The notes under the pieces are model-generated. The model had not been told where the DNA came from, did no database searches, and worked only from the letters and a program-made list of their open reading frames with translations. From Phyllobacterium sp. YR531 (GTDB taxonomy: Bacteria > Pseudomonadota > Alphaproteobacteria > Rhizobiales > Rhizobiaceae), in contig NZ_AKIZ01000037.1 in the NCBI RefSeq assembly GCF_000282595.1, positions 124,001 to 188,000 on the forward strand: a DNA stretch of 64,000 nt. Direction: 5' to 3'. Below, in pieces: positions 12,955 through 58,268 of the stretch. A program made the translations under genes and the position numbers. Positions within the stretch are counted from its first letter, which is position 1. Every line of letters begins with the position of its first letter.

Positions 12955-13029
12955 TGGTACGCCCAAGGGGAATCGAACCCCTGTTTGCGCCGTGAGAGGG
13001 CGCCGTCCTAACCGCTAGACGATGGGCGC
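12955..13029 (-). tRNA. tRNA-Glu (CTC anticodon)
   Basis: Read on the minus strand the gene starts GCGCCCA and folds as a complete cloverleaf. The D-stem is GTCT/GGAC, the anticodon stem GCGCC/GGCGC with loop CTCTCAC, and the T-stem AGGGG/CCCCT with loop TTCGATT. The anticodon is CTC, reading GAG (Glu). The acceptor stem closes with a G-U pair at 1-72, and a CCA end is encoded at 12957-12955. The identity is secure; transcript ends are approximate. Confidence 0.95.
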
Positions 13030-23188: not shown

Positions 23189-23245
23189 GTTTTCTCCTAT
23201 CCTCTCAGATAGCTCGCCTCTCGTTGGGGAGAGGTGGCCCACTGC
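23189..23245 (-). ncRNA. serC leader RNA motif candidate with two tandem hairpins
   Basis: Read on the minus strand, hairpin 1 is CCTCTC-(CCCAAC)-GAGAGG at 23234-23217 and hairpin 2 is CTATC-(TGAGAG)-GATAG at 23212-23197. Hairpin 2 ends inside the AGGAG ribosome-binding site of serC. A serC RNA motif is known upstream of serC in alphaproteobacteria; position and form agree with it, but I could not run a covariance model. A second GAGAGG lies in hairpin 2, so hairpin 1's left arm has two possible partners. Confidence 0.55.
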
Positions 23246-24206: not shown

Positions 24207-24222
24207 TTAAATCACGCTTAAC
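24207..24222 (+). promoter_or_regulatory. CtrA box upstream of Omp25/31-like gene
   Basis: TTAA-ATCACGC-TTAAC matches all nine fixed bases of the CtrA consensus TTAA-N7-TTAAC. It lies 79-94 nt upstream of the Omp gene (minus strand). In Brucella, CtrA controls outer-membrane composition including Omp25, so position and target fit. A partly overlapping TTAACGTTAAC (about 24244-24254) is nearby and may be part of the same promoter. Confidence 0.6.
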
Positions 24223-30942: not shown

Positions 30943-30958
30943 TTAATCCACTCTTAAC
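30943..30958 (+). promoter_or_regulatory. CtrA box upstream of pal
   Basis: TTAA-TCCACTC-TTAAC matches the CtrA consensus exactly. It lies 84-99 nt upstream of pal (minus strand). A TTGAAC (about 30927-30932 on the minus strand) lies between it and the gene and may be the -35 element. Further TTAAC/TTAA words are nearby (30970s). Confidence 0.5.
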
Positions 30959-38183: not shown

Positions 38184-38714
38184 TCAGCGATGACCGAATG
38201 CGGTGGCCAGTAGGCTGATCTGATCCGAAACAGGATTGGTCGACATGAAGCGGTCATGTTCAATGCCCGCGCCGTCATTATAGATTTCATCATCCATCTG
38301 GCGGACGCGGGCCTGCAGTCGCAGCGAGCGATGGACTATATCGCAATAGGAAAGCGATATCTCGTTCCATCCCTCGACAGTGTCCGGAGCGGAATCCGTA
38401 TCAAGCCTTACCTTGGCTTTTTCCGACATCACCTGTTCAAGCGTCATTTCGCCGCTGCGGGAAGCTCTCTGCAGCAAAAGCCAAGATGCAACCTGCATCA
38501 ACCGGGTTGTGAGGCGCATCGATTCGGCAGCATACAGCGTCGCCGCAACCCTTGAGAGTTGACGCGCCGCCTCACGCCCCTCACCATCCAGGTAAGAGGC
38601 TGCTTCCTCGACGAGGCTCATGCCTTCATCATATATGTGATTGAAACTTTCGGAGCGAACCATCCGGTCCGCAAGCCGGATAGTGTTGTCTGCCTTGAAT
38701 TCCTGTTCACCCAT
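38184..38714 (-). CDS. rcdA: DUF1465 protein, RcdA-type protease adaptor
   Basis: The 176-residue helical protein belongs to the DUF1465 family that includes Caulobacter RcdA, an adaptor that helps ClpXP degrade CtrA and other regulators. The N-terminal region (NTIRLADRMVRSESFNHIYDEGMSLVEEAA) and ARQLSRVAATLYAAESMRLTTRLMQVASWLL form the expected helical bundle. The ATG at 38714 has AGGG six nt upstream; ATGs at 38717 and 38729 are alternatives. A perfect CtrA box sits about 155-170 nt upstream, matching CtrA control of rcdA known in Caulobacter. Confidence 0.82.
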   Translation of the reverse strand: MGEQEFKADNTIRLADRMVRSESFNHIYDEGMSLVEEAASYLDGEGREAARQLSRVAATLYAAESMRLTTRLMQVASWLLLQRASRSGEMTLEQVMSEKAKVRLDTDSAPDTVEGWNEISLSYCDIVHRSLRLQARVRQMDDEIYNDGAGIEHDRFMSTNPVSDQISLLATAFGHR

Positions 38715-38869
38715 CATATGCCCTGTCATCTAAAATATGCGCTGCCGCAATCCGCAATTTCGTCAAAGCAGTGGCCCCTTACTGAAGGAGGAGCCGGAAC
38801 AGCACAACGGCCGGCGGGCAGTATTCCCCCGCAACCTGCCCGTATGTGCACAGTGACGCAAGTTTATCC

Positions 38870-38885
38870 TTAATAAAGGGTTAAC
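38870..38885 (+). promoter_or_regulatory. CtrA box upstream of rcdA
   Basis: TTAA-TAAAGGG-TTAAC matches all nine fixed positions of the CtrA consensus. It lies between rcdA (minus strand, downstream) and the terminator of the candidate small RNA. CtrA directly activates rcdA in Caulobacter. Confidence 0.6.
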
Positions 38886-38920
38886 GGCAGAGCGATCGGC
38901 AACTATCGGGAAGATATAAA

Positions 38921-38957
38921 CATAAAAAAAGAGCCGCAAAAACGAGGCGGCTCTCAG
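38921..38957 (-). terminator. Rho-independent terminator
   Basis: AGAGCCGC and GCGGCTCT form a perfect 8-bp stem, followed on the minus strand by seven Ts. It ends the candidate small RNA and could also end read-through from the acyl-CoA synthetase gene. Confidence 0.9.
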
Positions 38958-39022
38958 GAGTCTAACAGGGAGGCGTCAAACAAAGTGGCCAAACCACTTG
39001 GTAAGAATCCAGAAAACTGGAT
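38921..39022 (-). ncRNA. Candidate trans-acting small RNA with anti-Shine-Dalgarno motif
   Basis: Read on the minus strand from about 39022, the sequence forms hairpin 1 (ATCCAG-TTTT-CTGGAT) and hairpin 2 (AAGTGG...CCACTT). An unpaired segment GACGCCTCCCTGTTAGACTC containing the anti-Shine-Dalgarno word CCTCCC follows. A terminator, AGAGCCGC...GCGGCTCT with TTTTTTTA, closes it. A TATAAA (39034-39029) sits at the -10 position and a perfect CtrA box lies just before it. The form (about 100 nt, two hairpins, C-rich open region, terminator) resembles Rhizobiales sRNAs of the AbcR / alpha-r15 type. That family assignment is an inference. Confidence 0.55.
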
Positions 39023-39045
39023 GACTTATTTATAGATTGTAATGC

Positions 39046-39061
39046 TTAACGAATGGTTAAC
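39046..39061 (+). promoter_or_regulatory. CtrA box at candidate sRNA promoter
   Basis: TTAA-CGAATGG-TTAAC matches the CtrA consensus exactly. It covers the position of the -35 element of the minus-strand promoter whose -10 is TATAAA at 39034-39029, a layout typical of CtrA-activated promoters. Confidence 0.55.
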
Positions 39062-39121
39062 TTGGATAAATCGAGACAATATTGCCTAAAAAGCCACCAA
39101 TATTGCATTGTCCTTCCATCT

Positions 39122-40768
39122 TTACCCTCGATTTTCTCGCGCTCTTTTGCGCAACTCGAACTTCTGGATTTTCCCGGTGGATGTCTTGGGTATTTCCTCG
39201 AACACCACGTGCCTCGGACATTTGAAACCCGCAAGCAGGCCTCGGCAATGAGCAATCAGTTCGTCAGCAGTGGCAACATATCCCTGTTTCATCTCAACGA
39301 AGGCCATGGGTGTCTCTCCCCATTTATCGTCCAGACAGGCCACAACCGCACAGGCGCTTACACCTGGAAACTTGTAAAGAGCATCTTCAACTTCAATTGA
39401 CGAAATGTTCTCTCCGCCAGAGATGATAATATCCTTCGAACGGTCCTTTAGCTGGATATAGCCATCGGGATACATGACACCCAGATCACCCGAATGGAAC
39501 CAGCCACCCGCAAAAGCTTCATCGCTCGCCTGCCGGTTTTTAAGGTAGCCTTTCATGACTATGTTGCCACGAAACATGACTTCGCCAATCGTTTCCCCAT
39601 CCGGCGGCACCGGGTTCATGGTTTCCGGATCAAGCACCGCCAATCCTTCCAGCGGCGTATAGCGAACACCTTGCCGTGCCTTGCGCGCAGCCTTGGAGGA
39701 CGATTCCAGTTCATTCCATTCATCCTGCCATTCATTCACCACGGCAGGTCCATAGGTCTCCGTCAGCCCGTATAGATGCGTGACTTCAAAACCTGCTTCC
39801 GCCATCCCTGCCAATATTGATTCAGGTGGAGACGCTGCTGCAGTATTGAACGACACGGTCTGGGGAAATGTGCGTTTCTCTCGCTCGCCAGCATTTATCA
39901 GTGTCGACATCACGATGGGTGCGCCGCAAAGATGCGTTACACCATGATCGGCAATCGCATCATAGATTGGTTTTGCCCTCACCCAACGCAGACAAACATG
40001 CGTCCCGAATTGCAAAGCCAATGTCCACGGAAAGCACCAGCCATTGCAATGAAACATCGGCAACGTCCAGAGGTAAACCGGATAACGCCCAAGCCCTGAC
40101 GCGACGATATTGCCATATCCCATCAATGCAGCACCGCGATGATGGTAGACCACTCCCTTGGGATTGCCGGTCGTGCCGGATGTATAGTTCAGTGTTATCG
40201 CATCCCACTCATCATCAGGCATTGACCAGGCATATTCCGGATCGCCGCTTTGTAAGAAAGCCTCATAGTCAAGTTCACCGATACGCGGTCCCTGCTCATG
40301 CGGCGCGTCATCAGGATACTCGGCATCCACAAAATCAATAATGAGTGGCTTCACCTTCGCCAATTTGAGCGCCTCGCTGAATACCTTTGAAAATTCGGTA
40401 TCCACAATCGCGATTTTGGTCTCCGCATGATCTAACTGGAAGGCAATAATGGCAGCGTCCAGCCGTGTATTGAGTGAATGCAGCACTGCCTTTGTCATGG
40501 GAACACCGAAATGCGCCTCCAGCATTGGTGGTGTATTCGAAAGCATGACAGTGACGGTATCGCCTTTGCCTATTCCCCTGGCGGCAAGCGCCGAGGCCAA
40601 CTGGCGTGTCCTGCGATAGAAATGTTCGTAATCTGTGCGCTGGGAACCATGGATGATGGCAGTTCTGGTCGGATAAACCCGCGCGGCACGCTCCAGATAG
40701 GTAAGCGGCGTCAATGGTTGGTGGTTTGCCGGGTTTCGGTCCAGATCCTGCTCAAAAATACTACCCAT
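39122..40768 (-). CDS. Acyl-CoA synthetase (AMP-forming, FadD/AlkK-like)
   Basis: This 548-residue adenylate-forming enzyme has the phosphate-binding loop YTSGTTGNPKGVVYHHRG, the motif YGLTETYGP, the hinge YIQLKDRSKDIIISGGENISS and the catalytic C-terminal Lys in PKTSTGKIQKFELR. It activates a carboxylic acid, probably medium- or long-chain fatty acid, to its CoA thioester. The start at 40768 (MGSIFEQDLDRNPAN) is chosen over 40792. It is a single gene, with the OpgC-like gene upstream separated by its own terminator. Confidence 0.88.
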   Translation of the reverse strand: MGSIFEQDLDRNPANHQPLTPLTYLERAARVYPTRTAIIHGSQRTDYEHFYRRTRQLASALAARGIGKGDTVTVMLSNTPPMLEAHFGVPMTKAVLHSLNTRLDAAIIAFQLDHAETKIAIVDTEFSKVFSEALKLAKVKPLIIDFVDAEYPDDAPHEQGPRIGELDYEAFLQSGDPEYAWSMPDDEWDAITLNYTSGTTGNPKGVVYHHRGAALMGYGNIVASGLGRYPVYLWTLPMFHCNGWCFPWTLALQFGTHVCLRWVRAKPIYDAIADHGVTHLCGAPIVMSTLINAGEREKRTFPQTVSFNTAAASPPESILAGMAEAGFEVTHLYGLTETYGPAVVNEWQDEWNELESSSKAARKARQGVRYTPLEGLAVLDPETMNPVPPDGETIGEVMFRGNIVMKGYLKNRQASDEAFAGGWFHSGDLGVMYPDGYIQLKDRSKDIIISGGENISSIEVEDALYKFPGVSACAVVACLDDKWGETPMAFVEMKQGYVATADELIAHCRGLLAGFKCPRHVVFEEIPKTSTGKIQKFELRKRARENRG

Positions 40769-40841
40769 CCAACACGCCTCCCCTATTATCAAGCGAGCTT
40801 AGCTTAGGTTTGTCAGTGGCGGCTAGTTGATTCTTGGATTG

Positions 40842-57939: not shown

Positions 57940-58087
57940 CGCTGGCAAGAGCCAGCTCGGGATGAAACAGTGGCGTCCACACAACCGATGGAGAAGTCGA
58001 TCCCGGGAACCTACAAAGTAGGTGGGTGCCGTGTGAAGAAGCCCACGGGCCTCTCCAGGGACAGCTCCCTAAGGGATTATTAAGGCC
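57940..58087 (-). ncRNA. ssrS: 6S RNA
   Basis: On the minus strand a GGAGAGG/CTTCTCC stem followed by CCCG/CGGG leads to an apical region with GTGGG/CCCAC and ACCTAC/GTAGGT hairpins. A 5' and 3' single-stranded bubble flanks it (TTAATAATCCC on one side, ATCGGTTGTGTGGACGCC on the other). It lies immediately upstream of the 5-formyl-THF cyclo-ligase gene, as in other proteobacteria. CATATT (58099-58094) is at the right place for a -10 box, giving a start near 58087. The 3' end is approximate; a GCTGGC/GCCAGC hairpin (57940-57956) may be part of it or follow it. 6S RNA sequesters sigma-70 RNA polymerase in stationary phase. Confidence 0.72.
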
Positions 58088-58268
58088 CCGGGGAATATGT
58101 CTCTCCTGTCGTGAGGCGCAGAGCGCCAATCCGAATATAGGACGCCCGCACCAATAGCGCCAGTGGACCAAACACGATTTTCCATTCCTGACACAACATT
58201 GTCTGCAGCCATGTTGTTGACTGCGTCCAGTCGCTGTAGTTTCGAGCCTTGAGGGGGAGACTCACTAT

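Follow-up and report, generated by a model that had tools for sequence, protein, structure and literature searches.

The small RNA described here belongs to a known family whose named members are sm84/SmelC671 of Sinorhizobium meliloti, ReC71 of R. etli and BjrC1505 of Bradyrhizobium. The family spans Rhizobiaceae, Phyllobacteriaceae, Brucellaceae, Bradyrhizobiaceae and Methylobacteriaceae with extensive microsynteny, and ReC71 was placed in it as a member of the SmelC671 family (PMC3927594), the name ReC71 being absent from the main text of the R. etli paper itself. In strain 1021, sm84/SmelC671 comprises 100 nt on the plus strand between two plus-strand genes (PMC2873474, PMC2573895). On a Northern blot it appeared as a band of about 80 nt, microarrays detected it under all six stress conditions, and a sigma-70 promoter was assigned to it in 2008 (PMC2573895); SmelC671 is listed in nodule zone II only (PMC7143759, Table 1). 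Neither a function nor a regulator was found for sm84/SmelC671, ReC71 or BjrC1505 in the open-licence literature searched, where no link of CtrA to the RF02356/SmelC671 family and no naming of rcdA as its neighbour came up. BjrC1505 is reportedly lower in soybean nodules.

RcdA participates in CtrA degradation (PMC4433202, PMC8959179). In S. meliloti, CtrA was bound at the rcdA promoter region by ChIP-seq, yet CtrA depletion caused no significant change of rcdA by microarray, qPCR or fusions (PMC4433202). The rcdA genes of three agrobacterial lineages have multiple start sites in all of them, with possible CtrA sites further upstream than in Caulobacter (PMC10469942), and CtrA of Hyphomonas neptunium is reported as not regulating rcdA (PMC7200025). 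A start-site study of S. meliloti sought CtrA motifs upstream of protein genes only (PMC3616915), and this restriction may be the reason why a CtrA link to the RNA was missed. An earlier note on the present DNA had taken CtrA control of such an RNA to be new; this is half right, as a precedent is CcnA, reported as CtrA-dependent in Caulobacter (PMC8959179), but for RF02356 the literature searched gave none.

The locus was identified in a 64-kb stretch of DNA from Phyllobacterium sp. YR531, called the window below. It occupies a gap of 392 bases on the minus strand, where all its elements lie, between an acyl-CoA synthetase gene upstream (39122-40792, NCBIfam NF006020) and rcdA downstream (38184-38729), the adaptor for CtrA proteolysis. 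The product of the latter, DUF1465 by its Pfam name and labelled likewise in the S. meliloti Ak57 annotation, matches the RcdA equivalog NF051867 of NCBIfam with 213 bits (cut-off 170) and the RcdA structure PDB 3CTW at E 1.6e-31. Among its named relatives, the neighbouring gene is closest to a Rhizobiales isolate (96%) and thirteen Phyllobacterium loci (81-88%). CtrA itself is encoded in the genome, with 99% identity over 201 aa to a CtrA query sequence.

The small RNA comprises about 100 nt (38924-39022, predicted 5' end) and was matched to RF02356 by cmscan with 77.4 bits and E 8e-13. Its parts are hairpin 1 (AUCCAG...CUGGAU, 39007-39022), hairpin 2 (AAGUGG...CCACUU, 38983-38999), the presumed pairing region GUUUGACGCCUCCCUGU with its anti-Shine-Dalgarno core (38965-38981, conserved over 102 matches) and the intrinsic terminator GAGAGCCGC...GCGGCTCT followed by seven T (38924-38955), seen in the sequence, the fold and the pairing over 102 rows. 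A TATAAA sequence at 39029-39034 is the -10 element, supported by a TA-rich block conserved among aligned promoters, and the CtrA box TTAA-N7-TTAA (TTAACCATTCGTTAA) lies at 39046-39060, about -38 to -24 from the start that we infer, ending 11 nt before the -10 element. A second exact box (TTAACCCTTTATTAA, 38870-38884), identified by the exact-site scan, presumably belongs to the promoter of rcdA.

The elements named by the earlier note were thus largely recovered: the two minus-strand hairpins (39022-39007 and 38999-38983), the terminator stem (38955-38929) with its seven Ts (38930-38924) and the TATAAA at the -10 position (39034-39029) are all present. The CtrA box is perfect as claimed and occupies 39060-39046, the base 39061 included with it being a flanking one. 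The CCTCCC motif of the segment described as open is at 38973-38968, inside GUUUGACGCCUCCCUGU, but in the predicted fold it forms the loop of a third, weak hairpin.

The window contains four exact TTAA-N7-TTAA sites where 0.26 are expected, a number reached by none of 100 shuffles, and two of the four are in the RNA/rcdA intergenic region. The remaining two, at 24207-24221 and 30943-30957, could mark other CtrA-controlled genes. A plain consensus scan of 38700-39200 identified no sigma-70 promoter with a -35/-10 spacing of 16-18 nt, which makes an activator plausible. The terminator was also absent from the scan output for this region, because its loop of 9 bases exceeds the limit of 8 used by the scan. 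Other elements of the window above Rfam cut-offs are a 6S RNA (57971-58127, minus strand), which is also found near the orthologous RNA in S. meliloti Ak57, a serC leader (23192-23244, minus strand) and a tRNA (12958-13029, minus strand).

RF02356 is the sole Rfam family above cut-off at the locus (cut-off 50), and the match covers positions 1-140 of the 140 in the model. Up to E 10 four families were matched, BjrC1505, mmgR, SorY and SorX, and none was an AbcR or alpha-r family, so the kinship with AbcR/alpha-r15 proposed by the earlier note gives way to RF02356. The Rfam match extends over 38924-39070 and covers the promoter too. Since the opening part of the model aligns with the CtrA box and promoter, the Rfam entry probably contains untranscribed promoter DNA, and it probably needs trimming at the 5' end as well as widening toward Sinorhizobium and relatives.

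Of 297 genomes sampled across the order, 245 contain RF02356, representing 107 of 123 genera, and the own genome holds one match to the small RNA. A promoter-blind model (R1) was derived from 38 transcripts trimmed to begin 5 bases upstream of the predicted start of the window RNA. It matched 89 of 101 genomes sampled from the family, belonging to 88 of 100 genera, and 50 of 385 genomes across the class, 4 of them from the own order; these class-level matches were taken down to E 0.001 and some may be false. The loci counted outside the order are 26, and two more (L229, L230) were fetched. The Rhizobium/Sinorhizobium-like branch is diverged, its core being TTCTCCCTGTTTTACC, and four of its members score 29-40 bits in Rfam, below the RF02356 cut-off. 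In one family outside the order, two genomes (G504 and G670, loci L131 and L132) contain two or three RNA copies, some in tandem; both copies of L132 also resemble SorX, SorY and mmgR, below the cut-offs of those families.

Twelve family genomes had no R1 match and 10 of these contain rcdA. Among nine readable upstream regions of rcdA from these genomes, the RNA was recognized by eye, below threshold, in two (L300, L302), a third (L303) presented box and terminator only, and no RNA was seen by eye in the other six (L301, L304-L308). The latter belong to the same family and keep rcdA, five of the genomes being of at most 2.0 Mb. Two of them (L301, L306) have an exact CtrA box upstream of rcdA.

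The S. meliloti Ak57 record contains the box, the RNA, the second box and rcdA in the same order. Counted from a start 38 bases past the beginning of the box, its RNA reaches the last T after 100 nt, and the span between the 6S start and the end of the RNA measures 13.1 kb in Ak57 against 14.4 kb in 1021. By position, rather than by printed sequence, this orthologue is probably sm84/SmelC671. A 3.7-Mb S. meliloti record labelled pSymB (L403, CP090106.1) appears to be a chromosome mislabelled as a plasmid; tkt, gap, phosphoglycerate kinase, 6S RNA and rcdA are all on it.

The minus strand (102 nt, predicted) folds at -34.7 kcal/mol with a z of -5.8, and none of 200 shuffles was as low. Over 102 aligned matches from 100 loci, 97.6% of the pairing cells are paired against 92.3% in shuffles, and two-sided changes were found in 15 of 21 pairs against 6.8, in an alignment fitted to the structure of the R1 model and therefore favouring it. 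The signal was lost when the pairing partners were slid along the alignment, and a MAFFT alignment of 38 rows gave two-sided changes in 5 of 21 pairs. By helix, over the 102 rows, two-sided changes occur in 4 of 4 counted pairs of hairpin 1 and in 5 of 6 of hairpin 2, and 99.9% of the cells of the terminator stem are paired. The helix with the poorest support is the third hairpin, with CCUCCC in its loop, which is also missing in the best predicted fold of the S. meliloti orthologue. The compensatory changes that the earlier note proposed to look for are therefore present: hairpins 1 and 2 and the terminator covary, while helix 3 is weak.

The small RNA of the earlier note was borne out, and its C-rich anti-Shine-Dalgarno core is strongly conserved. 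CUCCCUG was identified in 100 of the 102 aligned matches, CCUCCC in 94, GACGCCUCCCUG in 85 and the whole 17-mer GUUUGACGCCUCCCUGU in 61. The core is also present in all 38 rows of alignment A1, partly by construction, because these rows were picked by the core pattern.

The conservation of the CtrA box was evaluated by counting TTAA-N7-TTAA sites with no more than one mismatch at the corresponding position relative to the RNA, after collapsing near-identical upstream windows. Loci with a failed core pattern were left out (8 of 119 in the R1 set, 3 of 80 in the protein-anchored set and 2 of 91 in the Rfam set), and the sets were counted apart because the Rfam model includes the promoter and could bias its loci. 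The promoter-blind R1 set comprises 109 non-redundant loci, 74 with an exact box and 103 within one mismatch, against a mean of 5.1 and a highest value of 12 within one mismatch in 200 rounds of shuffles; the box that the earlier note had seen where a -35 element would lie is in this way conserved among promoter-blind homologues. The protein-anchored set has 40 exact boxes and 42 within one mismatch in 42 non-redundant loci, and the Rfam set 31 and 81 in 83. Exceptions, with a box beyond one mismatch, are six promoter-blind loci and two of the Rfam set, all non-redundant, and include the weak match L230, with three mismatches. Outside the order R1 gave 26 loci, of which 2 were not placed and 22 are non-redundant; the box is exact in 11 of these 22 and within one mismatch in 19, the shuffles giving a mean of 2.1 and at most 7.

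Taken over all 227 non-redundant loci, the box is exact in 139 and within one mismatch in 219. Two control windows further upstream of the same loci contained 1 and 2 boxes within one mismatch and none exact, a fairer control than shuffles because related genomes share sequence. Exact boxes at other spacings (3-6 and 8-12) numbered 0-5 against 139 at spacing 7. Under the one-mismatch rule, 114 of the 227 loci also fit spacing 3 and 49 fit spacing 6, probably because a TTAA-rich sequence follows the second half-site; spacing 7 is thus singled out by exact matches only. In 133 aligned promoters the half-sites carry 1.6-1.9 bits, a value inflated because these rows were preselected for a box within one mismatch, with 6 loci removed. 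None of the 23 columns from -25 to -3 upstream of the box exceeds 0.35 bits. A further conserved stretch, reading TTTACT or TATAAA and located +27 to +32 from the start of the box, is the -10 element. As read from these promoters, the CtrA box fills the -35 place of the RNA promoter, and by analogy its position near -31 would fit activation.

In the family, 85 of 87 loci have rcdA next to the RNA; the figures are 88 of 91 for the Rfam set and 18 of 32 at class level. In all 261 loci where both were placed by script, rcdA is downstream on the same strand, a count that includes loci fetched through rcdA (80 of 290), in which this is so by construction. The median distance from terminator to rcdA is about 145 nt. 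A second box within one mismatch was identified between them in 104 of 198 non-redundant regions, 90 of them exact, against a mean of 7.0 and a highest value of 16 in shuffles. No rcdA match was identified in 14 of the 32 class loci, one of which (L131) has a diverged rcdA. In the remaining 13, all outside the order, the box of the RNA is within one mismatch in 12 and missing in L230. The next gene is a Cys/Met-metabolism enzyme in L118 and L120, dehydrogenase-like in L129 and an EamA transporter in L134, and L135 ends about 200 bases past the RNA, so that the absence of rcdA is not judgeable there. Since the box is kept in 12 of 13 loci without rcdA nearby, the sequences indicate that it goes with the RNA rather than with rcdA.

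Targets were sought by pairing. Silencing at ribosome-binding sites is the natural guess because the conserved core is anti-Shine-Dalgarno; the mRNA repression put forward by the earlier note would act in this way, and the pairing searches gave no standout target. The 10-mer AACAGGGAGG occurs at 5 genomic places besides the RNA, 3 of them at ribosome-binding sites. Partner sites before N3-9-ATG in 20 genomes of the genus numbered 75 with AAC, 53 with CAA and 14 with ACA, in a tally where a site with two ATGs may count twice. In 19 genomes outside the genus the values were 15, 24 and 21, with no enrichment of complementary ribosome-binding sites; AAC exceeds ACA only within the genus, and exceeds CAA there by little. 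Several exact partners from inside and outside the genus resemble exported solute-binding proteins by reading. By a crude signal-peptide rule of our own, applied to the returned loci rather than to all sites, the true triplet gave 10 exported-like products in 20, and the permuted ones 7 in 22 and 5 in 20; strong ribosome-binding sites in general may be behind this trend. In L294 and L295, AACAGGGAGG is at the start of a GutM-like gene (by reading) and of a solute-binding protein gene, the latter site being kept in L327 and L333.

The best duplex among 59 window leaders was formed by the acyl-CoA synthetase leader with the C-rich stretch of the RNA (-22.2 kcal/mol), its ribosome-binding site (aggggaggcgt, 40774-40784, minus strand) matching ACGCCUCCC of the RNA. 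Against the same 59 leaders, ctrA, gcrA and rcdA ranked 35, 28 and 37 over -40..+15, and 44, 4 and 36 over -200..+30. For gcrA, 27 of 30 loci were scorable and only 5 of these 27 had at most 5 of 60 shuffles pairing as well, the lowest being 2 of 60. The pairing of the ctrA and rcdA leaders was unremarkable, and gcrA, a weak lead, was not clearly above shuffles.

Building on the family, structure, box conservation and rcdA linkage established here, we regard as the likely reading a trans-acting RNA of the RF02356/SmelC671 family that is activated by CtrA and silences mRNAs through its C-rich stretch. Phosphorylated CtrA would activate the promoter through the box over the -35 region. The RNA would rise with active CtrA, in G1 and late predivisional cells by analogy with Caulobacter, and fall as CtrA is switched off or degraded. 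Pairing of the conserved C-rich stretch with G-rich ribosome-binding sites would then lower the translation of a set of mRNAs. As rcdA has a CtrA box of its own, CtrA could drive from one locus both the output of the RNA and its own destruction. What we infer in this proposal is activation rather than repression, where transcription starts, which mRNAs are targets and how they are silenced.

Among the alternatives, the RNA could be a 5' leader or attenuator of rcdA, in which the transcript from the upstream box mostly terminates, read-through sets the level of RcdA and the short RNA is a by-product. The constant downstream position of rcdA on the same strand (261 of 261, some fetched via rcdA), its median distance of about 145 nt and the multiple agrobacterial start sites of rcdA (PMC10469942) agree with this arrangement. 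We nevertheless judge it unlikely, as a second box separates terminator and rcdA in 104 of 198 regions, the box is kept in all four loci followed by other genes (L118, L120, L129, L134), the terminator is nearly perfect, which a leader does not need, and six genomes, five of which are no larger than 2.0 Mb, keep rcdA but show no visible RNA. An RNA similar to AbcR/alpha-r15 that represses transporter mRNAs would explain the anti-Shine-Dalgarno core and the exact partners resembling exported solute-binding proteins, but the lack of any AbcR or alpha-r match in Rfam up to E 10 and a trend in exported-like products that may only mirror strong ribosome-binding sites make it very improbable.

The promoter could also be an ordinary sigma-70 one on which CtrA acts as a repressor or has no effect when bound, the box then causing dips of the RNA in the cell cycle. 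The sm84 signals in all six stress conditions (PMC2573895) and the distance of only 11 nt from the box end to the -10 element speak for it; from these signals and the sigma-70 assignment of sm84, strict CtrA dependence of expression is not required. Against it, the box occupies the -35 place, the scan gave no -35/-10 pair with 16-18 nt spacing, and the listing in nodule zone II only (PMC7143759) fits a loss alongside CtrA activity. We therefore find this reading distinctly unlikely and retain the activated, trans-acting RNA.

With CtrA, the family of sm84/SmelC671, ReC71 and BjrC1505 gains a candidate regulator and a testable place in the cell cycle, and the wide conservation of the promoter box, with the RNA in 88 of 100 family genera, points to CtrA and a cell-cycle role. 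A separately terminated RNA gene that CtrA drives upstream of rcdA could partly explain the multiple agrobacterial start sites and the oddity of S. meliloti, where CtrA is at the rcdA promoter region and rcdA expression is unresponsive to it. The explanation is only partial because a separate exact box precedes rcdA in S. meliloti too, so that the ChIP signal is not assignable to the RNA alone. A wider and more tentative view is that the CtrA-driven RNA predates the order, the box being kept even without adjacent rcdA or with replaced stems; the RNA would be a general CtrA output across the order and some of its sister orders, and its pairing with rcdA would let CtrA switch on a translational brake together with its own destruction, and much of the CtrA binding at the "rcdA promoter" would be that of the RNA.

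Compared with the described systems, the RNA of the window is a full-length covariance match to RF02356 BjrC1505, alike in hairpins, core and terminator and with no structural difference. The likeness to sm84/SmelC671 is one of position: plus strand, two plus-strand genes, terminator, 100 nt and about 13-14 kb from 6S. The S. meliloti RNA differs from that of the window in its shorter conserved core (CUCCCUGUU) and has no RF02356 match above cut-off. A core similar to CUCCCU before the terminator is shared with mmgR (RF00519), SorX (RF02784) and SorY (RF02651), but the window RNA is below their cut-offs, with 23.9 of 41, 13 of 46.6 and 15.4 of 111, respectively. EcpR1 and GspR of S. meliloti are likewise rhizobial small RNAs tied to the cell cycle, and their accounts do not describe them as CtrA-driven (PMC4414408, PMC7143759). 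EcpR1 is located downstream of divK-pleD and has the loop motif UCCGCCGCAUCU, absent from the window RNA, whose neighbours are other ones, whereas GspR is at another locus and likely restricted to Sinorhizobium (PMC4414408, PMC7143759). CcnA of Caulobacter crescentus shares a CtrA box before a small RNA, a C-rich loop and a proposed action at ribosome-binding sites, and differs in its location at the replication origin, its 182 nt and its action on ctrA and gcrA (PMC8959179). The RNA of the window, in contrast, precedes rcdA, has the acyl-CoA synthetase gene on its other side and presents no clear pairing with the ctrA or gcrA leaders.
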